64,000 nt of DNA from Longimicrobiales bacterium (lineage in GTDB: Bacteria > Gemmatimonadota > Gemmatimonadetes > Longimicrobiales > Gaopeijiaceae). Below, one piece after another: positions 32,188 to 64,000 of the stretch. The notes under the pieces are model-generated. The model saw only the letters and a program-made list of their open reading frames with translations. It made no database searches and was not told where the DNA came from. Positions within the stretch are counted from its first letter, which is position 1. Each line of letters starts with the position of its first letter. Made by a program: the position numbers and the translations under genes. The stretch lies in contig OY282361.1 in the NCBI GenBank assembly GCA_958295645.1, forward strand, positions 1,826,501 through 1,890,500. The letters run 5' to 3'.

Positions 32188-33465
32188 ATGCGGGGATTCC
32201 CGCCCGTGTCGCCGCAGCGCGCCGGCGAGGGCCCGACGTCCGCGGCCGCGCCGGGAAGACCGCAGGAGAGGACGGCCGGGCGGCGGCGTCTGGCGGATGC
32301 GGTCCTCGAGCTGGTCTGGCGCCACAAGACCATCTCGCGAGCCGAGATCTCGCGTCTCACGGGAAGGTCGCGGTCCACGATCTCCGACATGGTCGCGGAC
32401 CTGCTGCAGACCGATCTGGTTCGCGAGGCGGGGAGCGGCCGCAGCCGAGGCGGGCGCCGTCCGGTCATCCTGGAGTTTCGCGACCATGCGCACGTGATCC
32501 TGGGCGTGGACATGGGCGCCACCCACGTCTCCGCCGCCTTGACCGACCTGCGGGGCCGCGTGCTGGCTTGGCACGACCGGATCCACGACGTGCGGGGAGA
32601 CCCCGAGGGCTCGGTGGCGCTGCTGTCCGAGCTCTGCGAGGCCTGTCTGGCCTCGAGGCCGGCCTCCGCGGGCGAGCTGCTGGGCATCGGCTTCGGGCTA
32701 CCCAGCCCGGTGGACCCGGCCAGTCCCGACCGCATCTCTCCGCGCGTGTTCCCCGCCTGGCGCGGGCAAAGAGTGTTCGGCGGACTGGGAGAGCGCTTCG
32801 GCGTTCCGGTGTACGCGGAGAACGACGCGAACCTGGGCGCGGTTGCCGAGCAGTGGTGGGGCAAGGCGGCCGGATCGGACAACTTCATGTACGTGAAGGT
32901 CGGCACCGGGGTGGGCGCCGGCATCGTCCTGAACGGCGAAGTGTTCCGCGGGGCCACCGGCGTGGCGGGCGAACTCGGCCACATCGTGGTGGACGGCTCG
33001 GGTCCGCCCTGCGTCTGCGGCAGCCGCGGCTGCTTGGCCACGTTCGTGGGAACCCGGGCCCTCGTGGCGCGCGCGAAGTCCCTCTTGAGACGCCATCCGG
33101 ACAGCATCCTGGCCGCGGCCGAGCCCGACATCGTCGCCATCGAGGACGCCGCGCTCGCCGGCGATCCGCTGGCAGTGGCCGTGACCGACGAAGCGGCGCA
33201 CTACCTCGGAACGGCCCTCGCAGGGATCATGAACCTGATGAACCTCGGATCGATCGTCGTCGGCGGCAGCCTCGCCCGGCTCGGAGAACGCCTCTTGGCT
33301 CCTCTCCGCGAGGCGGTGTTGTCGCGGACGCTGGTCGGCTCCGCCGCCTGCACCATCGACGCCAGCAGCCTGGGCCCTCGGTCCGTGGCCCTCGGAGCCG
33401 CCACGCACGTCCTCGTGGCTGCGCTGGCCGACCCTCGCCTCTTTCCTGGAGTGGAATCGCGATGA
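32188..33465 (+). CDS. ROK family transcriptional repressor (NagC/XylR type)
   Basis: The 425-residue protein begins 15 bases after the lipoprotein gene. Residues about 30-95 are a winged helix-turn-helix (ISRAEISRLTGRSRSTISDM, then LVREAGSGRSRGGRRP). The ROK domain follows with VILGVDMGATHVSAAL, FGLPSPVD, AENDANLGAVAEQWWG, KVGTGVGAGIVLNGEV, GELGHIVVDG and the zinc-binding cluster CVCGSRGC. ROK repressors release DNA on binding a sugar or sugar phosphate. The two identical palindromes in this locus are its likely operators, and placement inside the operon implies autoregulation. Its stop overlaps the GH16 start (ATGA). Confidence 0.9.
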   Translation: MRGFPPVSPQRAGEGPTSAAAPGRPQERTAGRRRLADAVLELVWRHKTISRAEISRLTGRSRSTISDMVADLLQTDLVREAGSGRSRGGRRPVILEFRDHAHVILGVDMGATHVSAALTDLRGRVLAWHDRIHDVRGDPEGSVALLSELCEACLASRPASAGELLGIGFGLPSPVDPASPDRISPRVFPAWRGQRVFGGLGERFGVPVYAENDANLGAVAEQWWGKAAGSDNFMYVKVGTGVGAGIVLNGEVFRGATGVAGELGHIVVDGSGPPCVCGSRGCLATFVGTRALVARAKSLLRRHPDSILAAAEPDIVAIEDAALAGDPLAVAVTDEAAHYLGTALAGIMNLMNLGSIVVGGSLARLGERLLAPLREAVLSRTLVGSAACTIDASSLGPRSVALGAATHVLVAALADPRLFPGVESR

Positions 33466-49716: not shown

Positions 49717-50817
49717 TCATGACCGGCCCCGTTCGTCGGACCAGCGCAACTTCGTCTTGAGCGAGTTGAGGTTGCTATTCCAAGGCACCCGTTTTTCATG
49801 CTGGAGTCTCCCGACCACAATGCCAGGCGGTATGCCTTGGTCGTCCGCAAAGCGACGGACTGCGTCGCACCCAAGATCTTCCTGACCGACGAACTGCCGC
49901 CACATGGGTTGCGGGATCAGGAAGTTGGCGGCCCACCGGTTTGCCTCGTCTTCCATGGCATCATCGCTCCCGCGTGGCTCGTCGATGAAGACTCTCCGCT
50001 TGCCATGAAGGAGGATGTGGGCGGCCTCATGAAACATGCTGAACCAGAGTTGGTCATCCGTCTTGTGGCGCGCCGTAAGGGCAATGACAGGATTGCGGGC
50101 CGATGGCCACCATGCCGCACCACTCAGCCGCATGCCGGAAAACGGCTTGACAACGGCCAACGCAACACCGGCAGAATTGCAGAGCGCCTGTGACTTTGGC
50201 AGGGCTCCGGGCGACCATGTCCGGGTAAGCTGACGGATGCCCATCAATGACTCGTAGAACGCCTTCTTGTCGTATTCCGCACATTCTTGCTTGGCAGCAC
50301 GAACCTCGACCGTCCTATGCCAAACGGCGAACGCATCCCGGTTGCTTTCGAAGCTCGGCGAATGGCGGTACGCGACAGCCACCTTGCCATAGCGGTCCTT
50401 CCAAGCCGATACCGATGCCACGCCAAAAAAGGAAAGCAACTCGGATACGCTGCCCTTGCCGGTGGTTACGGCAATGAGCCGCCGTTTCCCCATTTCCTTC
50501 ACCGGGAAGCGTCGTACCCAGGCCACGCTGTCCTGGATTCGCTCGTCGTCCGCCAACCTCGTGCGATGAAGCCGGTAGTCGGATTCCATGCCAAGCCATA
50601 TGTGGGCGCCGACAGCGAGCACGCGTTCCAGCTGCAGGGCGGTTTCGGGCTCGAGCGAAGCTTTTCCGGCGATGATGTCGCTGATCAGTTTCGGGGACCG
50701 CCCACAGCGACGCGCGAGTTCTGCCTGAGAAAGCCCGTGCGCCGCTAGACGTTCGGCCAGTACCGATCCGGGCGCGACGGCGTAGTCGGGCCGGTAGCCA
50801 TAAGTCGCTGTGGTCAT
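49717..50817 (-). CDS. XRE-family regulator fused to ImmA/IrrE peptidase (HigA-like antitoxin)
   Basis: The 366-residue protein starts at ATG 50817. Residues about 20-75 are a Cro/C1 helix-turn-helix (LAERLAAHGLSQAELARRCG, then SPKLISDIIAGKASLEPETA). The C-terminal half has the ImmA/IrrE zinc-peptidase motif FHEAAHILLHGKRR, with ANRWAANFLIP as the downstream conserved block. This fusion is typical of large HigA-like antitoxins paired with RelE/HigB toxins. The toxin gene is just upstream. Binding to the inverted repeat at 51204 and auto-repression are inferred. It could alternatively be a free-standing regulator that cleaves a partner. Confidence 0.85.
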   Translation of the reverse strand: MTTATYGYRPDYAVAPGSVLAERLAAHGLSQAELARRCGRSPKLISDIIAGKASLEPETALQLERVLAVGAHIWLGMESDYRLHRTRLADDERIQDSVAWVRRFPVKEMGKRRLIAVTTGKGSVSELLSFFGVASVSAWKDRYGKVAVAYRHSPSFESNRDAFAVWHRTVEVRAAKQECAEYDKKAFYESLMGIRQLTRTWSPGALPKSQALCNSAGVALAVVKPFSGMRLSGAAWWPSARNPVIALTARHKTDDQLWFSMFHEAAHILLHGKRRVFIDEPRGSDDAMEDEANRWAANFLIPQPMWRQFVGQEDLGCDAVRRFADDQGIPPGIVVGRLQHEKRVPWNSNLNSLKTKLRWSDERGRS

Positions 50818-50854
50818 GGTTCGGTTTCCTCCGAGTCCGGTCGGCTTCGCATCC

Positions 50855-51193
50855 CTACTTGTGGTAGTCGACTACTTTGACCACCGTCACCGCAACGACC
50901 CGATCCGTGTCGATCCCGCCGTCGGGCCGAAGGTGAGGCGGATCGCGATTAGGCTTGAAGATCAATCGCTTTGGATGGACGAGGTCTACGGCGTACTGGC
51001 CGATTCGGTCTCCTTTGAGTTGGTGTCTCCTCTCTGGCTTGGCAACGGGCACGTCCGACAGCGTCTTCGCGTTCTTCAGGACGGCAAGGCGGTTCATGAT
51101 GACGGTCGCCATGCGGTCTCCGTATTTCCGCTTTAGCCGCTGTTCCGAGTTGAAAAGCTTTGCGAGCGAGCGCCTTGCGAATCCGATGTCCAC
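50855..51193 (-). CDS. RelE/HigB-like toxin
   Basis: The 112-residue protein starts at GTG 51193 (VDIGFARRSLAKLF). A longer frame to 51235 would read through the inverted repeat. KLFNSEQRLKRKYGDRMATV and IMNRLAVLKNAKTLSDVPV are helical, followed by strand-like RRHQLKGDRIGQYAVDLV and RLIFKPN. This is the HigB/RelE killer course, a ribosome-dependent mRNA interferase family. Toxin-first order and 37-base spacing to the antitoxin fit higBA-type loci. Confidence 0.75.
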   Translation of the reverse strand: MDIGFARRSLAKLFNSEQRLKRKYGDRMATVIMNRLAVLKNAKTLSDVPVAKPERRHQLKGDRIGQYAVDLVHPKRLIFKPNRDPPHLRPDGGIDTDRVVAVTVVKVVDYHK

Positions 51194-51203
51194 GAGTCCC
51201 GTC

Positions 51204-51232
51204 GTTATCGTTACCTGTTGGGTAACGATAAC
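51204..51232. promoter_or_regulatory. Perfect inverted repeat, probable operator of the toxin-antitoxin pair
   Basis: Arms GTTATCGTTACC and GGTAACGATAAC are perfect 12-base reverse complements with a 5-base centre (TGTTG). It ends 11 bases upstream of the toxin GTG. Such a site next to the first gene is the normal place where the HTH antitoxin represses its own promoter. It is AT-richer than surrounding DNA. Confidence 0.8.
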
Positions 51233-51277
51233 CACCCATTCGCCCCGCGTCCATCCCCGGCCTACCGGTACCGCACC

Positions 51278-54486: not shown

Positions 54487-55320
54487 TTACGCCGCCCCCG
54501 CGGCTTGGAACAGGATGCAGTCCGCGTCGTAGCGCGCTTCGAGAAGCGCTCTGTTGGCGGGCGTCAGGCGGCCGGCGGCGGCGGTGCGCGCCTCCTTCAA
54601 GGCTGCCGGGGCCGCGCGCCAGCCCGCCATGGTGTTGAACAGGGGCAGCGGCCGCGCGGGCATTCCGAGCTTGTCCGCAACCACCTGCCAGTCGGTCTCG
54701 ATATTCTCCAGACGGCCTACGAAATCGGGCGGACGGCCGTCTTCGCTGCGGATCTGCAGGCGCTGGGACAGGAAGTGGCGGTCGGCGAAGTCGTCCGAGC
54801 CGTAGCGCGTGTTCAGCCAGCGACAGAAGGCGTCGAAGGAGAGCGTGCGCGCCAGTCCGGGAAACCGGGCGAACAAGTCCTGGCGCTTCGCCCTCTTGGC
54901 GCGGCGTTGTTCTCCGCGGCAGAGCTGGTGGGCGAAGTGCAGCTCCCGGTGGAACGACAGGGCGCGTCCGAAGGGATGACGGACGAACGCGAAGCTGAAG
55001 TACTCCGCGGCTTCGGGGTGCATGGCCCGGACCTCCGAGATGCTCCGGCCGCGGAGGACGCGGGCGTCCGGGTCGGCTTCCAGCAGGGCCGACATGATGC
55101 TACGCGAAGCCACCTTCGGGTTGCAGGTCCACAGGCAGCGCAACTTGCGGGACACGATCTTCTCGGCGCCCAGGTCCGGCCCGCCCGACGCCGCCCGGGC
55201 CACCCTCCGGGCTTCGCCGGTCTCGCCCCTCGCCAACGCGGAGAGGATGTCCTTGACGGCGAACGGGCGAGACGCGATGGCCGCCAGCCGGCTCGCCTTG
55301 CTCCGAAGGCCGGAACTCAT
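54487..55320 (-). CDS. Carbohydrate sulfotransferase (sulfotransferase family 2)
   Basis: The 277-residue protein starts at ATG 55320, overlapping the preceding glycosyltransferase stop (ATGA). LRCLWTCNPKVASRSIMSAL is the PAPS-binding 5'-phosphosulfate loop (NPKVASRS), and YFSFAFVRHPFGRALSFHRE is the 3'-phosphate-binding segment (FVRHPFGRxLS). These are the two signatures of family-2 sulfotransferases. It would transfer sulfate to the glycan made by the operon. Final gene of the coupled chain, 134 bases before the BNR gene. Confidence 0.85.
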   Translation of the reverse strand: MSSGLRSKASRLAAIASRPFAVKDILSALARGETGEARRVARAASGGPDLGAEKIVSRKLRCLWTCNPKVASRSIMSALLEADPDARVLRGRSISEVRAMHPEAAEYFSFAFVRHPFGRALSFHRELHFAHQLCRGEQRRAKRAKRQDLFARFPGLARTLSFDAFCRWLNTRYGSDDFADRHFLSQRLQIRSEDGRPPDFVGRLENIETDWQVVADKLGMPARPLPLFNTMAGWRAAPAALKEARTAAAGRLTPANRALLEARYDADCILFQAAGAA

Positions 55321-56807
55321 TGCAACCCCGAATCGCTCCTGGCGCCTCGCGACGACTCCGGAGGAACGGCGGGGGCGTCGGCGATGCCGGCGAGCGCCGG
55401 AGCCCAGCCGCGCACGACCGTCTCCGCCTTGCTCATGAAGTAGTCGTCCGCCTCCTCCCACGTGTGGCCGCTGCGCCGCCGAACCATCAGGTACCCCGAG
55501 CCGTGAATTCGATAGACGCACCCGCGCGCCCGCAACACGGCTTCGACGAGCCGCTTGTCCACGGCCCGACGCACTGGCGGCCAGCCGCCGGCCCGGGCGA
55601 GGTCGCAGCGCGAGATCAACAGGGTGCCGCCCGTCCAGGTCAGGGTCCGGTAGTCTTCCCCGGTCCCGCTGTGCAGATGCACGGTGCAGTCCAAGCCGGA
55701 CAAGTACACGAATTCCAGGCCCTTGCTCACTAGCTGGGCTCGCGAGTATTCGTGCCCGAGCACTAGGTCCCAGACGTGCTCGGCGTCGTAGAGGTCGTCG
55801 TCGTCCATCTTGGTGAGCAGGGCGCCGGTCGAAGCGGCGGTGGCCGCGTTCAGGACGGCGCCCAGCGACTCGCGAGCCGCGACGCGCACCACCTTGGCTG
55901 GATGCGGCAGTTCCGCGGCCTGGCGTTCGGCGTCGGTGAAGCCTTCGCCGTGCAGCGCGAGCACCAGCTCGAGCCGGGGATAGGTCTGCTTCGCGACCGC
56001 GCCGAGCGCTCGCGCGAGGAAATCGGGGCGCCGGGTCGCCAACAGGACCGAGACCAGCGGGAGGGGGCCGCCTAGGCCGCGTTGCCGGGCGCGCGCCGGA
56101 AGCGAGTGGTCGCGAAGCGCGATGCGGCGCATCCGGATGCTGTGCTGCTCCCGCTCGGCGGCGTCCATGCCGGCGGGGCTCCTGGTCATGAGGCGGTGGA
56201 GTTCGCCGCCGACGAGTTGCGCCAAGCCGGGGCCGCCGTCCGCCAAGTGCACCAAGGTCCCGGCGCCGACGAGGCGGAGGAGAGCGCCTGCCCGGGCGGA
56301 GGCGTCCCGGTGGAAGGCCTCCGCGTCGACCACGTGATGCATCCGTCGCAGCCGCAGCAGATGGCTGGAGCGCACCACGCAGTCCGCTTTCGCCTCCGGC
56401 GGCAACCGCCCGAGCGGGCCGAGCGCAGCGACGCGGTTCTCGGCGGCGCGGCGCCAGCGAATGGGGTTCCACGTCCACGGGTCGAACGGGGGCGTCGGCT
56501 CGAAGCCCGAGGGCGGCGAGGCCTTTCCCGGCAAGCGGGAGGACGTTCCGGGTCTTTGTGCGCTTGCCGGAGCGATGCGCGGGCGCTTCGGCGCAGTCCA
56601 CGCTCGTGCCGGGTCGATCCGCGCGCCGTGGAGCAGCCGGCCCAATGCGGTGTGCGCGAGGCGCCAGCGCAACAAGCGTCTCCGGTTGGCCGCGCGCCAT
56701 GCGGTGGTGGCCAGCCCCGCACGGGTGTGCGCACCCAAGGCCTGGAGAAGGCACCCGGCGCGGGCGCGGCCCGGCCGCGACCCGGTTGACGCCCGGCCGG
56801 GCGTCAT
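55317..56807 (-). CDS. GT2-type glycosyltransferase with an extra N-terminal domain
   Basis: The 496-residue protein starts at ATG 56807 (ATGA overlap). Residues about 250-480 are a GT-A domain: PLPLVSVLLATRRPDFLARA, then LGAVAKQTYPRLELVL and the metal-binding LLTKMDDDDLYDAEHVW. TWTGGTLLISRCDLARAGGW and RAVDKRLVEAVLRA are the acceptor-side motifs. The first 240 residues are Arg/Ala-rich and not assigned. Sugar donor and acceptor are unknown; synthesis of a surface glycan is inferred from the operon. Confidence 0.8.
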   Translation of the reverse strand: MTPGRASTGSRPGRARAGCLLQALGAHTRAGLATTAWRAANRRRLLRWRLAHTALGRLLHGARIDPARAWTAPKRPRIAPASAQRPGTSSRLPGKASPPSGFEPTPPFDPWTWNPIRWRRAAENRVAALGPLGRLPPEAKADCVVRSSHLLRLRRMHHVVDAEAFHRDASARAGALLRLVGAGTLVHLADGGPGLAQLVGGELHRLMTRSPAGMDAAEREQHSIRMRRIALRDHSLPARARQRGLGGPLPLVSVLLATRRPDFLARALGAVAKQTYPRLELVLALHGEGFTDAERQAAELPHPAKVVRVAARESLGAVLNAATAASTGALLTKMDDDDLYDAEHVWDLVLGHEYSRAQLVSKGLEFVYLSGLDCTVHLHSGTGEDYRTLTWTGGTLLISRCDLARAGGWPPVRRAVDKRLVEAVLRARGCVYRIHGSGYLMVRRRSGHTWEEADDYFMSKAETVVRGWAPALAGIADAPAVPPESSRGARSDSGLQ

Positions 56808-58402
56808 TGCCCTCGGACGCGCGGGCTCGGCCTCGCGAACCGCAGGCAGACGTGGACCGACCACTTGAGCCAAGCCCATGCTCCGGAGGGGCTTCGAGCG
56901 TGCCGAAGGGAGTCGAGCAGGCGCCTTCGTTTCGAGTACCGCGCGGCGGGCGCCGGATCGGCCCGGCCTTCGCCTCTGGAGGCGATCCTCAGCCGAGCCG
57001 CCGACAACGTCCGGGCGTCGCCGAAGTCCTCTGGCGCGCCGCCCGTCCGAGCCGCCCGGTGAAGCGCCCAAGCGCGCGCGACCGACACGCGCCCGCCGCC
57101 GGGCAAAGTCGCGGCGGCCACGGCGGCGGCGCCCAGTCCAGTGCGCAACCGACGCACCAAACCTCTCGCGAAGATCGCCTCCGACGGGATCGTCACGTGA
57201 AACGGCGAGGCCGGAAACTCCCGCAACGCGCCGCCCGGCTCCGAGATGCGCACTCGCGGATCCGAACCGAACGCCTCCTCCAGCCGTGCGGCGCGCTCCT
57301 CGCCGGATGCCACTTCCCCGCCGGACGCCACCTCCCCGCCGGACTCGCGGCGGGTCTCGATTCGCACGACAAGATCGTGGACGCGGTCGGCCAGAAGCGT
57401 CGCCGCCGCCTCGACGATCGCTGCGGCCGACAGACCGTCGGCGCACAAGGTCACGACGAATTCCGGCACGACGAAGACCCGGCCGGGCCGGACGCCGCGA
57501 AACAGCGGGTGAGCGATCAGCTGAGCCGCCTTCTCGTGCTGGACGCGGCTTCCCCGGCGGTGGCGTTCCTCTTCCCAGCGGCCCTGGTGCCAGGCGGCGG
57601 CATCCCGTGCCGGCACCAGCAAGCCGCCTCGCACGTACGCCCGGTACGCGAGTTCCGTGTCCTCGTATCCCCAGCGCGTGAACGACTCGTCGCTGCCGCC
57701 CAGTTGGCGATAGAATTCCCTGCGGATGCCGAAGTTGTTGCCGACGATCGCCATGAACATGCGGTCGTCCTTGGACTTCAAGTCGCCGGTGCGCAACAGG
57801 AGGTCCTCGATTCGCGGCGGATCCACCGGCCGGCCGGCAACCAAGTCGCGCAGGGAGCCTGGGCGCCGCCCGATCGCGCCAGCGTCCAAGTCTGCCACGT
57901 CGACGAAGGACGTCAGTCCCAAGGTGAGGGCGTCGGAGACCACGTGATGCCAACGCGCATGAGCGGCGACCCAGCTGGCATCGACGAGGATGTCGCTGTC
58001 CAGAAACAGAAGGATGTCGTGGGAGGCCGCGCGCGCACCCGTGTTGCGAGCCCGCGCCAAACCGAAGCCCCGCCGCTCCTGGCGCACCAGCTTCGCGGCA
58101 GGGCCGGCGGCGGGGACACGGTCCAACGGCGGGTCCGAACCATCGTCCACGACCACGATCTCGAACAAGTCGCGCGGGTACGATTGGCGACCGAGAGCCG
58201 CCAGCGTCTTGGGCAGCGCAGCGGCGTGAGTCTGGTAGTACGGCACGATCACGCTCACGGGCAAGGCGGGCGCGAAGGCGCCGGGCTCCGCCACCTCCAC
58301 CTGACTCCAGTCGTTGCAACGAACGGTGGAGGGGCCGGGGAGATTGGCGGGGAGGGATTGGCGCGGCTCGTGGGGCGCTTCCCGCGGGCAGCCGCTGCTC
58401 AC
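56804..58402 (-). CDS. GT2-type glycosyltransferase
   Basis: The 532-residue protein starts at GTG 58402, overlapping the GT39 stop (GTGA). The GT-A fold is at residues about 48-280: PVSVIVPYYQTHAAALPKTL, FEIVVVDDGSDPPLD, NTGARAASHDILLFLDSDIL (DxD), NNFGIRREFYRQLGGSDESF and RWGYEDTELAYRAYVRG. The C-terminal 230 residues form a separate region with a small repeat (SGGEVASGGEVASG). No transmembrane segment is evident. It acts on cytoplasmic sugar nucleotides; the product is unknown. Confidence 0.85.
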   Translation of the reverse strand: MSSGCPREAPHEPRQSLPANLPGPSTVRCNDWSQVEVAEPGAFAPALPVSVIVPYYQTHAAALPKTLAALGRQSYPRDLFEIVVVDDGSDPPLDRVPAAGPAAKLVRQERRGFGLARARNTGARAASHDILLFLDSDILVDASWVAAHARWHHVVSDALTLGLTSFVDVADLDAGAIGRRPGSLRDLVAGRPVDPPRIEDLLLRTGDLKSKDDRMFMAIVGNNFGIRREFYRQLGGSDESFTRWGYEDTELAYRAYVRGGLLVPARDAAAWHQGRWEEERHRRGSRVQHEKAAQLIAHPLFRGVRPGRVFVVPEFVVTLCADGLSAAAIVEAAATLLADRVHDLVVRIETRRESGGEVASGGEVASGEERAARLEEAFGSDPRVRISEPGGALREFPASPFHVTIPSEAIFARGLVRRLRTGLGAAAVAAATLPGGGRVSVARAWALHRAARTGGAPEDFGDARTLSAARLRIASRGEGRADPAPAARYSKRRRLLDSLRHARSPSGAWAWLKWSVHVCLRFARPSPRVRGQ

Positions 58403-60021
58403 GGCCGCACCTCGTCGGCAGCATTCGCTTTGTAGACGGAGACGCGTCCGTCGTCGTAGAGGAGCGAGTAGCGGTCTTCGACCCAGTTGCCGAAATCGTC
58501 GCCGAAGTCGTCGGTGGGTCGGGCGGCGTAATTCCGGATGAAGCCGTGAGGCTCGAACAAGCCGCCGCCCGTGGACCTGGCCACGAGATAGGCAGGGTTC
58601 GAGTCCATGGCTTCTCCAAGCACGTCCGGAGCGAGATAGCCCGACTCGACGAGCGGCCTGATGATGAAGGGCTTGCTCAAGTCTCCAGGATAAGCCAGGG
58701 GAGTTGCTGGTTCCAAGTCAAGATACCACGAGACGATGACGGGGTCGATTGGCCAGACGGCGTCGCCGGGTCGGCGGTCCGCCGCCACCACCTCGGCCGC
58801 GCGCTGGAGAGGACGATCCGGCGGCGCCTGCGTCCAGCCGTGCAAGCCGTCCGCGAACACGGCGCCCGACCCCGCGAACGCAACCAGCACCGCGAGGGTC
58901 CGCAAGCGTCCCGCAACGGGCGCAGACAAGCTTCTCGCCTGGCGAAAGGTCCAGTCGGCGCAGCGCGCATAGTACACGAAGCCAATTGGACTTGCGAGAA
59001 ACGCATAGTGGCGTTGCGAAGTCCCGCCGATTGCGATGCAAGCGAGGATTCCACCGAACGCACAAGCCAAGAGCGCTTCCTCCGCGCGTCCGGCGGCAAC
59101 CGGTCTGCGTCCCGAACTCGACTGCCCCTTTCCGGATCTCCGCCTCGTCCCCAAGAAAGTCGCCGCAGCCACCGCGGCGCCCAGCGCCAGCAAGCCGGAG
59201 ACCGCCGGCCTGTTCTTCGCCATGATCCAGAGCAACTCGAACCACGCAACCACCGTCTCGCCTACGGTCATTTTTCCGCCGTAGGAAAGCGGGACGTCGA
59301 TCATGGTAACTCTCAGGGCCGAGAGGGCGTCCGCCTGCCAGTAGAGGAAGAACAGCAGGCAAGGAAGAACCAGTCCCCCGGCCGAGAACAGCAAGGCCGG
59401 CTTCCATCCCGTGCTCCATCGCGGCCGGAAAAGCGCGGCGAACACGAGCCACCCGCCAAGCGCAACGGCCGGAATCGCCAGATTGAGCCGCGTCAGAGCA
59501 GCCGCCGATGCGAGGACGCTCGCCGCCGCAACCGCCGGGAGCCGGTCCCTCTTGGCCAGGAGAAGCCACAACGCGCCCATGAAGAGGGCTATCGCCGGAT
59601 GGTCCGTCAGCGTGGCCTGTCCGACGTGGCCCGCCGCGTCCACGGCAATCATCAAGCCCGCGGCACCGGACGACACGGGACCTGCCCAGCGGCGCGCCAC
59701 GGCGAACGTGGCGACGCACAGCATCAGCACGGAGAGGTCGCCGAAGAGCCGCACGACCCGCAACGTCTCTCCGAAGAGCGCGAACGCACCGGCGAGCATG
59801 TAGAACAAACCCGCCGGCTTGATTTCGAAAAGTCCCACGTTCGGCAGGTTTCCGTCGAGAACGTGGCCGGCCCGCAAGACGAAGGTGTCTTCGTCGATGT
59901 GGAGACTTTCCTTGTCCAGGCTCTCGATTTGAGTGCCGCAGACCGCAAGGGCGAAGACGAGCGTCCAGAAGACGCCGCTGTTCAGCCACCGATTCGCCGG
60001 GACCCGCCCCAGCCATGTCAC
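58399..60021 (-). CDS. GT39-type membrane glycosyltransferase (ArnT/PMT-like), tandem copy 1, no poly-G tract
   Basis: The 540-residue protein starts at GTG 60021 (GTGA overlap with copy 2). It has about 10 hydrophobic helices. The catalytic N-terminal loop has SLHIDEDTFVLRAGHVLDG with the Asp-Glu pair, followed by LFEIKPAGLFYMLAGAFALF. The C-terminus is a periplasmic domain (YSLLYDDGRVSVYKAN). GT39-type enzymes use polyprenyl-linked sugars to modify lipids, proteins or glycans. In this copy the region after the start reads WLGRVPANRWLNSGVFW with no homopolymer, unlike copies 2 and 3. Confidence 0.85.
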   Translation of the reverse strand: MTWLGRVPANRWLNSGVFWTLVFALAVCGTQIESLDKESLHIDEDTFVLRAGHVLDGNLPNVGLFEIKPAGLFYMLAGAFALFGETLRVVRLFGDLSVLMLCVATFAVARRWAGPVSSGAAGLMIAVDAAGHVGQATLTDHPAIALFMGALWLLLAKRDRLPAVAAASVLASAAALTRLNLAIPAVALGGWLVFAALFRPRWSTGWKPALLFSAGGLVLPCLLFFLYWQADALSALRVTMIDVPLSYGGKMTVGETVVAWFELLWIMAKNRPAVSGLLALGAAVAAATFLGTRRRSGKGQSSSGRRPVAAGRAEEALLACAFGGILACIAIGGTSQRHYAFLASPIGFVYYARCADWTFRQARSLSAPVAGRLRTLAVLVAFAGSGAVFADGLHGWTQAPPDRPLQRAAEVVAADRRPGDAVWPIDPVIVSWYLDLEPATPLAYPGDLSKPFIIRPLVESGYLAPDVLGEAMDSNPAYLVARSTGGGLFEPHGFIRNYAARPTDDFGDDFGNWVEDRYSLLYDDGRVSVYKANAADEVRP

Positions 60022-61664
60022 GGCCGTGCCCGGTCGGCCGCGTTCGCCTTGTAGACGGAAACGCGTCCGTCGTCGTAGAAGAGCGAGTAGCGGTCTTCGA
60101 CCCAGTTGGCGAGATCTTCGGCGCGTCGAGCATCGTACTTTCGGATGAAGCGGTTAGGCCTGAAAAAGCCGACGACCGTGGACCTGACCACGAGATAGGC
60201 GGGGTTCGAGTCCATGGCTTCTCCAAGCACGTCCGGAGCGAGATAGCCCGACTCGACGAGCGGCCTCATGATGTAGGGGTCGGTGAAGTCTCTAGGATAA
60301 GCCAGAGGAGTTGCCGGTTCCAAGTCAAGATACCACGAGACGATGACGGCGCGGACTGGCCACACGGCGTCGCCGGGCCGGCGGTCCGCCGCCACGACCT
60401 CGGCCGCGCGGCGGAGAGGGCGATCCGGCGGCACCTGCGTCCAGCCATGCAAGCCGCCTGCGAACACGGCACCCGCCCCCGCGAACGCAACCAGCGCCGC
60501 GGTGGTCCGCAAGCGTCCCGCAACGGGCGCCGACAGGCTTCTCGCCCGGCGAAAGGTCCAGTCCATGCAACGCGCATAGTACACGAAGCCAATTGGCATT
60601 GCGAGAAACGCATAGTGGTTGTGCGCGCCCCCGCTGGTTGCGAGGCAAGCGACGATTCCACCAAACGCGCAAGCCAAGAGCGCTTCTTCCGCTCGTCCGG
60701 CGGCAACCGGTCTGCGTCCCGAAATCGACGGCTCATTTCCCGCTCTCCATCTCGTCCCCAAGAAAGTCGCCGCAGCTGCCGCGGCGCCCAGCGCCAGCAA
60801 GCCGGAGACCGCCGGTCTGTTCTTCGCCATGATCCAGAGCAGTTCAAACCACGCAACCACCGTCTCGCCTACGGTCATTTTTCCGCCGTAGGAAAGCGGG
60901 ACGTCGATCATGGTAACTCTCAAGGTCAAGAGGGCACCCGCCTGCCAGTAGAGCAGGAACAGCAGACAAGGAAGAACCAGTCCCCCGGCCGAGAACAGCA
61001 AGGCCGGCTTCCATCCCCTGCTCCACCGCGGACGGAAGAGCGCGGCGAACACGAGCCATCCGCCGAGCGCTACGGCCGGAATCACCAGATTGAGCCGCGT
61101 CAGAGCGGCCGCCGATGCGAGGACGCCCGCCGCCGCAACCGCCGGGAGCCGGTCCCTCTTCGCCAGGAGAAGCCACAACGCGCCCATGAAGAGGGCTGTC
61201 GCCGGATTGTCCGTCAGCGTGGCCTGTCCGATGTAGCTCGCCGCGCCCACGGCAATCATCAAGCCCGCGGTGCCGGACGACACGGGACCCGCCCAGCGGC
61301 GCGCCACGGCGAAGGTGGCGACGCACAGCATCAGCACGGAGAGGTCGCCGAACAACCGCGCGACCCGCAACGTCTCTCCGAAGAGCGCGAATGCACCAGC
61401 GAGCATGTAGTACAAACCCGGCGGCTTCATGTCGAAAAGTCCCACGCCCGGCAGGTTCCCGTCGAGAACGTGGCCGGCCATCAAGACGAAAGTGTGTTCG
61501 TCTAAATTGAGCCATTCCGTGTCCAGGTTCTCGATCTGAGTGCCGCAGACCGCAAGGGCGAAGACGAGCGCCCAGAACACGCGGCTGTTCGGCCACCGAT
61601 CCCCCCCCCCCCCCCCCCCCTCTCTCTCCGTGCCCGTGTCACGGCCGTGCCCGGTTAGCCGCAT
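60018..61664 (-). CDS. GT39-type membrane glycosyltransferase, tandem copy 2, poly-G tract of 20
   Basis: The body from RWPNSRVFWALVFALAVCG to the C-terminus is homologous to copy 1 along its length: DEHTFVLMAGHVLDG, LFDMKPPGLYYMLAGAFALF and the periplasmic tail. The start is ambiguous because of the C20 tract at 61601-61620. ATG 61664, inside the end of copy 3, is in frame with 20 Gs. GTG 61642, which makes the usual 4-bp overlap, would be in frame only if the tract length were divisible by three. As assembled the coupled GTG start is out of frame. Expression may therefore switch with tract length. No other break is seen. Confidence 0.78.
   Translation of the reverse strand: MRLTGHGRDTGTEREGGGGGGDRWPNSRVFWALVFALAVCGTQIENLDTEWLNLDEHTFVLMAGHVLDGNLPGVGLFDMKPPGLYYMLAGAFALFGETLRVARLFGDLSVLMLCVATFAVARRWAGPVSSGTAGLMIAVGAASYIGQATLTDNPATALFMGALWLLLAKRDRLPAVAAAGVLASAAALTRLNLVIPAVALGGWLVFAALFRPRWSRGWKPALLFSAGGLVLPCLLFLLYWQAGALLTLRVTMIDVPLSYGGKMTVGETVVAWFELLWIMAKNRPAVSGLLALGAAAAAATFLGTRWRAGNEPSISGRRPVAAGRAEEALLACAFGGIVACLATSGGAHNHYAFLAMPIGFVYYARCMDWTFRRARSLSAPVAGRLRTTAALVAFAGAGAVFAGGLHGWTQVPPDRPLRRAAEVVAADRRPGDAVWPVRAVIVSWYLDLEPATPLAYPRDFTDPYIMRPLVESGYLAPDVLGEAMDSNPAYLVVRSTVVGFFRPNRFIRKYDARRAEDLANWVEDRYSLFYDDGRVSVYKANAADRARP
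61601..61620. repeat. C20 homopolymer (poly-G on coding strand) at the start of GT39 copy 2
   Basis: Exactly twenty C bases, flanked by CCACCGAT and TCTCTCTCCG. On the coding strand it is a poly-G run about 22 bases after the coupled GTG and 44 after ATG 61664, encoding polyglycine in one frame. The CTCTCT stretch beside it is itself a short dinucleotide repeat. Confidence 0.9.
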
Positions 61665-63261
61665 TCGCCTTGTAGACGGAAACGCGTCCGTCGTCGTAGA
61701 AGAGCGAGTAGCGGTCTTCGACCCAGTTGGCGAGATCTTCGGCGCGTCGAGCATCGTACTTTCGGATGAAGCGGTTAGGCCTGAAAAAGCCGACGACCGT
61801 GGACCTGACCACGAGATAGGCGGGGTTCGAGTCCATGGCTTCTCCAAGCACGTCCGGAGCGAGATAGCCCGACTCGACGAGCGGCCTCATGATGTGGGGC
61901 CGGCTCAAGGCTTCAGGAAAAGCCAGGGGAGTTGCCGGTTCCAAGTCAAGATACCACGAGACGATGACGGGGTCGATCGACCACACGGCGTCGCCGGGCC
62001 GACGGTCCGCCGCCACGACCTCGGCCGCGCGGCGGAGAGGGCGATCCGGCGGCGCCTGCGTCCAGCCGCGCAAGCCGTCCGCGAACACGGCGCCCGACCC
62101 CGCGAACGCAACCAGCGCCGCGAAGGTCCGCACGCGTCCCGCAACGGACGCGGACAAGCTTCTCGCCCGGCGAAAGGTCCAGTCCATGCAGCGCGCATAG
62201 TACACGAAGCCAATTGGAATTGCGAGAAACGCATAGTGGGGGGCCGCGGTCCCGCTGGTTGCGAGGCCAACGACGATTCCACCGAACGCGCAAGCCAAGA
62301 GCGCTTCCTCCGCGCGCCCGGCGGCAACCCCTCTGCGCCCCGAATTCGACGGCCCATTTCCGGCTCTCCGCCTCGTCCCCAAGAAAGTCGCCGCAGCCAC
62401 CGCGGCGCCCAGCGCCAGCAAGCCGGACACCGCCGGCCTACTCTTCGCCATGGTCCAGAGCAGTTCGAACCACGCAATCACCGTCTCGCCCACGTTCATT
62501 TGCCCGCCGTAGGAAAGGGGGCTGTCGATCATGCCAACCCTCAAGGCCAAGAGAGCGTCCGCCCGCCAGTAGAGAAGGAACAGGAGGCAAGGAAGAACCA
62601 GGGCCCCGGCCGAGAACAGCAACGCCGGCTTCCATCCCGTGCTCCATCGCGGCCGGAAGATCGCGGCGAACACGAGCCATCCGCCGAGCGCGGCGGCCGG
62701 AATGGCCAAGTTGAGCCGCGTCAGCACAGCCGCCGACGCAAGCACGCCCGCTCCGGCAACCGCCGGGAGCCGATCCCTCTTCGCCAGGAGAAGCCACAAC
62801 GCGCCCATGAAGAGGGCTGCCGACGGATTGTCCGTCATCGTGGCCTGTCCGGTGTGGCCCGCCGCCAACACGGCAATCATCAAGCCCGCGGCGCCGGACG
62901 ACACGGGACCCGCCCAGCGGCGCGCCACCGCGAACGTGGCGACGCACAGCATCAGCACGGAGAGGTCGCCGAACAACCGCGCGACCCGCAACGTCTCTCC
63001 GAAAAGAGCGAACGCCCCGGCGAGCATGTAGTACAAACCCGGCGGCTTCATGTCGAAAAGTCCCACGCCCGACAGGTTCCCGTCGAGAACGTGGCCGGCC
63101 ATCAAGACGAAAGTGTGCTCGTCGATATGGAGAGCCTCCGTGTCCAGGCTCTCGATCTGAGTGCCGCAGACCGCAAGGGCGAAGACGAGCGCCCAGAAGA
63201 CGCCGCTGTTCGGCCAGCCCCCCCCCCCCCCCCCCCCCCCCCCGCCCGGATCCCTCGCCAT
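61639..63261 (-). CDS. GT39-type membrane glycosyltransferase, tandem copy 3, poly-G tract of 26
   Basis: The 540-residue protein starts at ATG 63261, two bases after the stop of copy 4. With 26 Gs the frame reads MARDP, ten glycines, then WPNSGVFWALVFALAVCG, so this copy is ON as assembled. The remainder follows the family: TEALHIDEHTFVLMAGHVLD and LFDMKPPGLYYMLAGAFALF. About 230 bases encoding its C-terminus are identical to the equivalent stretch of copy 2 (61664-61895 versus 60044-60274), indicating recent gene conversion. It ends with a GTGA overlap to copy 2. Confidence 0.85.
   Translation of the reverse strand: MARDPGGGGGGGGGGWPNSGVFWALVFALAVCGTQIESLDTEALHIDEHTFVLMAGHVLDGNLSGVGLFDMKPPGLYYMLAGAFALFGETLRVARLFGDLSVLMLCVATFAVARRWAGPVSSGAAGLMIAVLAAGHTGQATMTDNPSAALFMGALWLLLAKRDRLPAVAGAGVLASAAVLTRLNLAIPAAALGGWLVFAAIFRPRWSTGWKPALLFSAGALVLPCLLFLLYWRADALLALRVGMIDSPLSYGGQMNVGETVIAWFELLWTMAKSRPAVSGLLALGAAVAAATFLGTRRRAGNGPSNSGRRGVAAGRAEEALLACAFGGIVVGLATSGTAAPHYAFLAIPIGFVYYARCMDWTFRRARSLSASVAGRVRTFAALVAFAGSGAVFADGLRGWTQAPPDRPLRRAAEVVAADRRPGDAVWSIDPVIVSWYLDLEPATPLAFPEALSRPHIMRPLVESGYLAPDVLGEAMDSNPAYLVVRSTVVGFFRPNRFIRKYDARRAEDLANWVEDRYSLFYDDGRVSVYKANAANRARP
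63218..63243. repeat. C26 homopolymer (poly-G on coding strand) at the start of GT39 copy 3
   Basis: Twenty-six C bases, at the same position relative to the gene as the C20 tract in copy 2, followed by GCCCGGATCC. On the coding strand it lies 18 bases after ATG 63261 and encodes polyglycine. The length may be uncertain if read from noisy long reads. Confidence 0.88.
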
Positions 63262-63262
63262 G

Positions 63263-64000
63263 TCACGGCCGCACCTCGTCGGCCGCGTTCGCCTTGTAGA
63301 CGGAGACGCGTCCGTCGTCGTAGAAGAGCGAGTAGCGGTCCTGTACCCACTTGCCGAAATCTTCGGCGCGTCGAGCATCGTAATTCCGGATGAAGTGGGG
63401 AGGTTCGAACGAGCCGCCGCCCGTGGACCTGACCACGAGATGGGCAGGGTTCGAGTCCATGGTTTCTCCAAGCACGTCCGGAAAGAGATAACCGGACTCG
63501 ACGAGCGGCCCCATGATGAAGGGCTTGCTCAAGTCTCCAGGATAAGCCAGAGGACTTACCGGTTCCAAGTCAAGATACCACGAGACGATGACGGGGTCGA
63601 TTGACCACACGGCGTCGCCGGGCCGGCGGTCCGCCGCCACGACCTCGGCCGCGCGGCGGAGAGGGCGATCCGGCGGCACCTGCGTCCAGCCATGCAAGCC
63701 GCCCGCGAACACGGCACCCGCCCCCGCGAACACAACCAGCGCCGCGGTGGTTCGCAAGCGTTCCGCAACGGGCGCCGACAAGCTTTTCGCTTGGCGAAAA
63801 GTCCAGTCCGCGCAACGCACATAGTACACGAATCCAATTGGACTTGCAAGAAACGCATAGTGGCGAAGCGCGACCCCGCTGGTTGCGAGGCAAGCGACGA
63901 TTCCACCGAACGCGCAAGCCAAGAGCGCTTCCTCCGCGCGGCCGCCGGGAGCAGCGTCCTGCTCCATCGCCGGCGCCGCGGCCTCGGGCTTCCTCCGCGC
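63263..64000 (-). CDS. GT39-type membrane glycosyltransferase, tandem copy 4, 5' end outside window
   Basis: The frame is open to the right edge, with the last 245 residues in the window. They correspond to the second half of the family: AEEALLACAFGGIVACL, HYAFLASPIGFVYYVRCADW, WTQVPPDRPLRRAAEVVAAD and the tail DDGRVSVYKANAADEVRP. The C-terminal region is closest to copy 1 (NAADEVRP end), whereas copies 2 and 3 share another ending. Whether it has its own poly-G tract cannot be seen. Confidence 0.82.
   Translation of the reverse strand, partial: ARRKPEAAAPAMEQDAAPGGRAEEALLACAFGGIVACLATSGVALRHYAFLASPIGFVYYVRCADWTFRQAKSLSAPVAERLRTTAALVVFAGAGAVFAGGLHGWTQVPPDRPLRRAAEVVAADRRPGDAVWSIDPVIVSWYLDLEPVSPLAYPGDLSKPFIMGPLVESGYLFPDVLGETMDSNPAHLVVRSTGGGSFEPPHFIRNYDARRAEDFGKWVQDRYSLFYDDGRVSVYKANAADEVRP

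Follow-up and report, generated by a model that had tools for sequence, protein, structure and literature searches.

Long poly-G/C tracts in tandem glycosyltransferase and defence genes as candidate phase-variation sites in a Gemmatimonadota genome

The locus considered here raises the question of whether two exceptionally long poly-G tracts, located at the starts of tandem glycosyltransferase genes, could form a phase-variable glycan switch, as was proposed in an initial annotation. Repeat-driven phase variation is chiefly known from animal pathogens and commensals, and glycan genes represent a classic target of poly-G contingency in Campylobacter. The window, i.e. the whole stretch of 64,000 nucleotides analysed, spans bases 1826501-1890500 of a genome assembled as a single contig (2,885,659 bases, 95.7 % complete). 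Both tracts, C20 at 61601-61620 and C26 at 63218-63243, are present exactly as first noted. They occupy matching places just 3' of the start codons of glycosyltransferase copies 2 and 3, while copy 1 lacks a tract. The array and its neighbouring genes, all of the window features on the reverse strand, are as follows (window positions, unless genome positions are stated).

54487..55461, minus strand: sulfotransferase (Sulfotransfer_2), last in the gene run
55317..56378, minus strand: second family 2 glycosyltransferase-like gene, in the same gene run
56804..58402, minus strand: gene for a family 2 glycosyltransferase, immediately downstream of copy 1; the stop and start codons overlap
58399..60021, minus strand: PMT_2 glycosyltransferase copy 1, without tract, GTG start
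60018..61664, minus strand: PMT_2 glycosyltransferase copy 2, from ATG 61664, with GTG 61642 as alternative start
61601..61620, minus strand: poly-G tract near the copy 2 start, G20 on the coding strand, 5' flank GAGAGAGA
61639..63261, minus strand: PMT_2 glycosyltransferase copy 3, from ATG 63261, with GTG 63266 as alternative start
61640..61642, minus strand: start codon GTG of copy 2, which overlaps the stop codon TGA of copy 3 (GTGA)
63218..63243, minus strand: poly-G tract near the copy 3 start, G26 on the coding strand
63259..63266, minus strand: junction GTGACATG, with the copy 4 stop and the two copy 3 starts, GTG and ATG, which differ in frame
63263..64000, minus strand: 3' part of glycosyltransferase copy 4, without tract, running past the window end
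Genome 1893010-1893020: G11 tract of copy 5; copy 5, then a fragment, lie upstream of copy 4

The tandem arrangement of tracted copies was correctly recognised, but the window displays only part of the array, which goes on through copy 4 and copy 5 to a fragment. It comprises five full tandem copies and the fragment (genome 1884902-1893505), with the window edge cutting through it. When copy 3 is used as reference, the other four copies are 83-88 % identical. Across the five copies the tract lengths are 0, 0, 11, 20 and 26, with the tract at a homologous site in the three tracted copies. The label 'GT39' given to these genes rests on the Pfam PMT_2 family. It stands for copies 2 and 3 (31.8 and 35.4 bits, respectively, against a cut-off of 26.1), while copy 1 is borderline, scoring just under the cut-off at 26.0 bits. 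Sequence searches yielded no relative of the array glycosyltransferases with a solved structure, and the AlphaFold model, for which the input consisted of three near-identical sequences, was poor (pLDDT 31). No homologue of the array was found among 95 other genomes of the family (E 1e-20) or in named genomes, and the comparative case therefore depends on genes elsewhere in this genome. The two family 2 glycosyltransferases and the sulfotransferase encoded downstream in the same orientation suggest a sulfated surface glycan as the product of the array, which, judged from the gene families, is a fair guess. Rfam and tRNA searches of the window returned no matches. At 49717-51235, a helix-turn-helix and metallopeptidase-like ORF lies beside a short HigB-like ORF, and by eye these could form a toxin-antitoxin pair.

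The reading frames described for the two window copies were borne out by a frame table. In copy 2, ATG 61664 is open when the tract length N is 2 mod 3 and GTG 61642 only when N is 0 mod 3; in copy 3 the same holds for ATG 63261 and GTG 63266, respectively. Copy 5 follows copy 3, with its ATG open at N = 2 mod 3 and its GTG at N = 0 mod 3, and in copies 2, 3 and 5 alike N = 1 mod 3 shuts both starts. Thus, each tracted copy has two start codons in different frames, which leaves it open in two of the three length classes and closed in the third, and a single-base change can close it, as is expected of the reading frame of a contingency locus. Both window tracts, as well as the G11 tract of copy 5, are 2 mod 3 as assembled, although these states are provisional, since any sequencing platform may miscount homopolymers of 20-26 G and the lengths could be wrong by one or two bases. 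Most of the copy-copy junctions read GTGACATGG, in which the upstream TGA stop overlaps a GTG start and an ATG follows in another frame. At copy 2 the junction is GTGACACGG instead. As copy 2 therefore lacks the ATG of GTGACATGG, an 'on' state at N = 20 needs ATG 61664, which lies within the end of the upstream gene. Copy 2 would be off as assembled if GTG is the sole start used, and its real start is uncertain. The tract-free copy 1 is in the GTG frame and the tract-free copy 4 in the ATG frame, which indicates that both starts may be functional; the start choice suggested here for the tracted copies is deduced from the sequence. The first predicted membrane segment of copy 3 covers residues 21-39, and the open-state tract is a glycine stretch ahead of it. 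The length of such a stretch in the N-terminal tail should matter little.

Tracts of this length are far beyond what chance would produce. Within the window, G/C runs have lengths of 1-7, followed by the runs of 20 and 26 alone. Of the seventeen G/C runs of at least 9 in the genome, five measure 9-10, one measures 11 and eleven measure 14-26, with none at 12-13; A/T runs of 10 are absent genome-wide. Extrapolation of the run-length decay in the window gives an expectation of ~0.02-0.3 runs of at least 14 in the whole genome, against the eleven observed, and the repeat length of a contingency locus is thus in evidence. High G+C content alone is no explanation, as closed genomes of the family with similar G+C lack such runs, the longest G/C run being at most 11 in two (G055 and G082) and at most 14 in a third (G004).

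The eleven long tracts lie in or near copies 2 and 3 of the array, members of an SGNH hydrolase/AlgX-like family, the gene of an initiating sugar transferase, a Type ISP-like restriction-modification gene and a PDC-M33 gene, with four unassigned. Those outside the array are listed here by genome position.

33310-33330 (L031 6311-6331): G21 in the PDC-M33A defence-candidate gene; G041 counterpart at L203 2975-2995
329244-329261 (L032 6245-6262): C18 in the Type ISP-like gene, between the helicase and methyltransferase parts; G041 counterpart C26 at L206 3013-3038
559138-559153 (L033 6139-6154): C16 on the coding strand, ~11 bases 5' of the ATG of a Bac_transf initiating sugar transferase
1790915 and 1794888 (L035 6416-6430 and 10389-10406): poly-C tracts right at the starts of SGNH/AlgX-like genes
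331791, 1275615, 2196804 and 2425576: four tracts without a clear gene link

The SGNH hydrolase/AlgX-like genes form a second tandem family of four copies, two of which carry tracts. The two tract-free copies begin with ATGTCGGCCCGCGACTCG. One of the others begins with ATG-C18-GACTCGGCG, in frame but with a broken 3' part, and the other with ATGCGAG-C15, in frame. Among the tracts without a gene link, the C21 at 2425576-2425596 (L038 6077-6097) is situated between two direct repeats, ~80 bases upstream of a TATAAT-like site preceding an SNF-family symporter gene, and could be a promoter-type switch.

Comparison with a genome of a related genus (G041) is most informative for the two defence genes, in which the tracts are found at the same codon position in both orthologues. 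The C18 tract divides the Type ISP-like gene (Mrr nuclease, helicase, methyltransferase) into two frames in the present genome, while the G041 orthologue, with C26, is read as one uninterrupted frame of 1507 aa, to which the halves here show 93 % and 90 % protein identity. Judged from the sequence of the present genome alone, lengths of 2 mod 3 would restore a single frame, and the 26 bases of G041 belong to this class. The combination of an Mrr nuclease, a helicase and an N6-methyltransferase in a chain of ~1500 aa, intact in G041 and split by the tract here, places the gene with the Type ISP enzymes. The PDC-M33A gene shows the reverse, with its frame intact here and broken in G041 at the matching site, where the tract is likewise G21 with a slightly different flank. 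Opposite frame states at the same sites in two assemblies fit slipped-strand phase variation and count against an artefact. Distant orthologues of the Type ISP-like and PDC-M33A genes (G008, 51 %; G082, 43 %) have no tract, and the tracts thus look like a feature of this lineage.

Several further observations concern these genes and relatives. Neighbours of the PDC-M33A gene include one that resembles Schlafen/AlbA and one with a weak match to SspD. In G041, the methyltransferase part of a second Type ISP-like gene contains a G24 that is in frame (L210 2976-2999), an Eco57I-type gene with G22 looks frameshifted (L202 3003-3024), and further long tracts precede a sulfotransferase paralogue and the gene of a large protein that looks secreted. 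In another genome of the family (G040), a gene whose product looks secreted carries a C21 (L199 2455-2475) immediately behind its start codon (ATGCGAAACCT) and lies near genes for beta-propeller-like (DUF5128) proteins.

Poly-G/C tracts mostly within reading frames, and a switching by slippage that we infer here, are shared with Campylobacter (PMC6321876). In a collection of C. jejuni and C. coli, 9G and 10G make up 52 % and 30 % of poly-G tracts, respectively (PMC6321876). By comparison the array tracts of 11-26 are long, and tracts above 15 had already been remarked on as unusually long. Campylobacter furthermore has a low G+C content, in contrast to 67 % in this window, and differs from the present genome, where one tandem array holds several near-identical copies, each tracted independently. 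Homopolymer tracts inside restriction-modification genes are shared with Helicobacter pylori, in which G13/G14 tracts in specificity-subunit genes act as switches; its Type ISP frameshifts are however not at repeats (PMC3936762), while the Type ISP-like gene here has a tract. Type ISP enzymes such as LlaGI combine an Mrr nuclease, helicase and methyltransferase in a single chain (PMC4872093, PMC4666363). Unlike these, the gene described here incorporates a poly-C tract, out of frame in this genome and in frame in G041.

Taken together, the claim of a candidate phase-variable glycan switch is upheld by tract lengths beyond chance, homologous sites among paralogues and dual start frames, as well as by similar tracts in other polysaccharide and defence genes and by orthologues in opposite frame states. 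The window tracts are very probably slippage-prone contingency repeats belonging to a genome-wide set, and from their sequence they would be expected to switch in living cells. The location of the sites at the starts of polysaccharide genes and within defence genes matches that of known contingency loci. Three other explanations were weighed. That the tracts are sequencing or assembly artefacts, arising for example from dark-cycle poly-G or homopolymer miscalls, would agree with the error-proneness of homopolymers of at least 20 and with the draft genomes of the family, in which poly-G is often seen within 100 bases of either contig end and is sometimes clustered. This is nevertheless improbable, as the runs here are internal to a single 2.9-Mb contig with unique flanks, occur at homologous sites in paralogues and recur at the same codon position of two orthologues in another assembly, where lengths or flanks differ; moreover, artefacts are not expected to pick gene starts and defence genes. 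Poly-G runs near contig ends (~100 bases), often in series, were observed in G019, G068, G078, G108 and other drafts. These may be artefacts or genuine tracts at which short-read assemblies break off, and since many are at contig ends, poly-G counts in draft relatives were set aside as evidence.

It is equally unlikely that the tracts are real but merely tolerated glycine linkers, drifting by threes and playing no role in switching. In the assembly, each of the three array tracts has a length of 2 mod 3 that leaves the ATG frame open, and several other in-gene tracts are also in frame, which would suit such drift. However, the defence genes include orthologues that are out of frame (Type ISP-like here, PDC-M33A in G041), the tracts kept are pure homopolymers and not mixtures of glycine codons, and some of the other tracts encode proline or precede genes. 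Marginally less credit still is given to the tracts as marks of recombination or gene conversion, left as by-products of copy shuffling in tandem arrays. Near-identical copies do make up both arrays, the segment before the tract of the SGNH C15 copy duplicates an internal piece of the gene, and a short duplication lies ahead of the tract in copy 5. Similar tracts are nonetheless found in genes without a tandem array, although recombination could still add variation.

Under slippage of contingency repeats, the poly-G run would gain or lose bases during replication, and the change in length would decide whether the body of the glycosyltransferase is in frame with its starts; single cells would thereby turn individual copies of the array on or off at random. 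In the readable length classes, the run would contribute no more than glycines, varying in number, to the short N-terminal tail that precedes the first membrane helix. An array in which three copies would be switchable and two fixed could thus, together with the neighbouring genes for a sulfotransferase and two family 2 glycosyltransferases, generate cell-to-cell variation of a surface glycan. The genome-wide set would also take in the SGNH/AlgX-like, initiating sugar transferase, Type ISP-like and PDC-M33 genes. The taxonomic placement is based on the nearest named relatives of one window protein, which are mainly Gemmatimonadota MAGs, several of whose isolate names we take to be sponge-derived. 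On balance, a wider reading is favoured, in which a Gemmatimonadota lineage, probably sponge-associated, uses genome-wide slippage at unusually long tracts as bet-hedging, affecting both surface-glycan enzymes and phage-defence enzymes (Type ISP-like, PDC-M33), with the tandem, near-identical glycosyltransferases providing combinatorial glycan states.

While the mechanism is already known, a literature search found, in the papers it covered, no report of phase variation in Gemmatimonadota or sponge symbionts, and its occurrence in this phylum appears to be unreported. If true, glycan and phage-defence switches would occur together in an uncultured lineage of high G+C content, and phase variation would be extended to a new phylum. 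The tracts furthermore provide concrete sites at which natural switching could be measured from existing long reads, without the need for culture.
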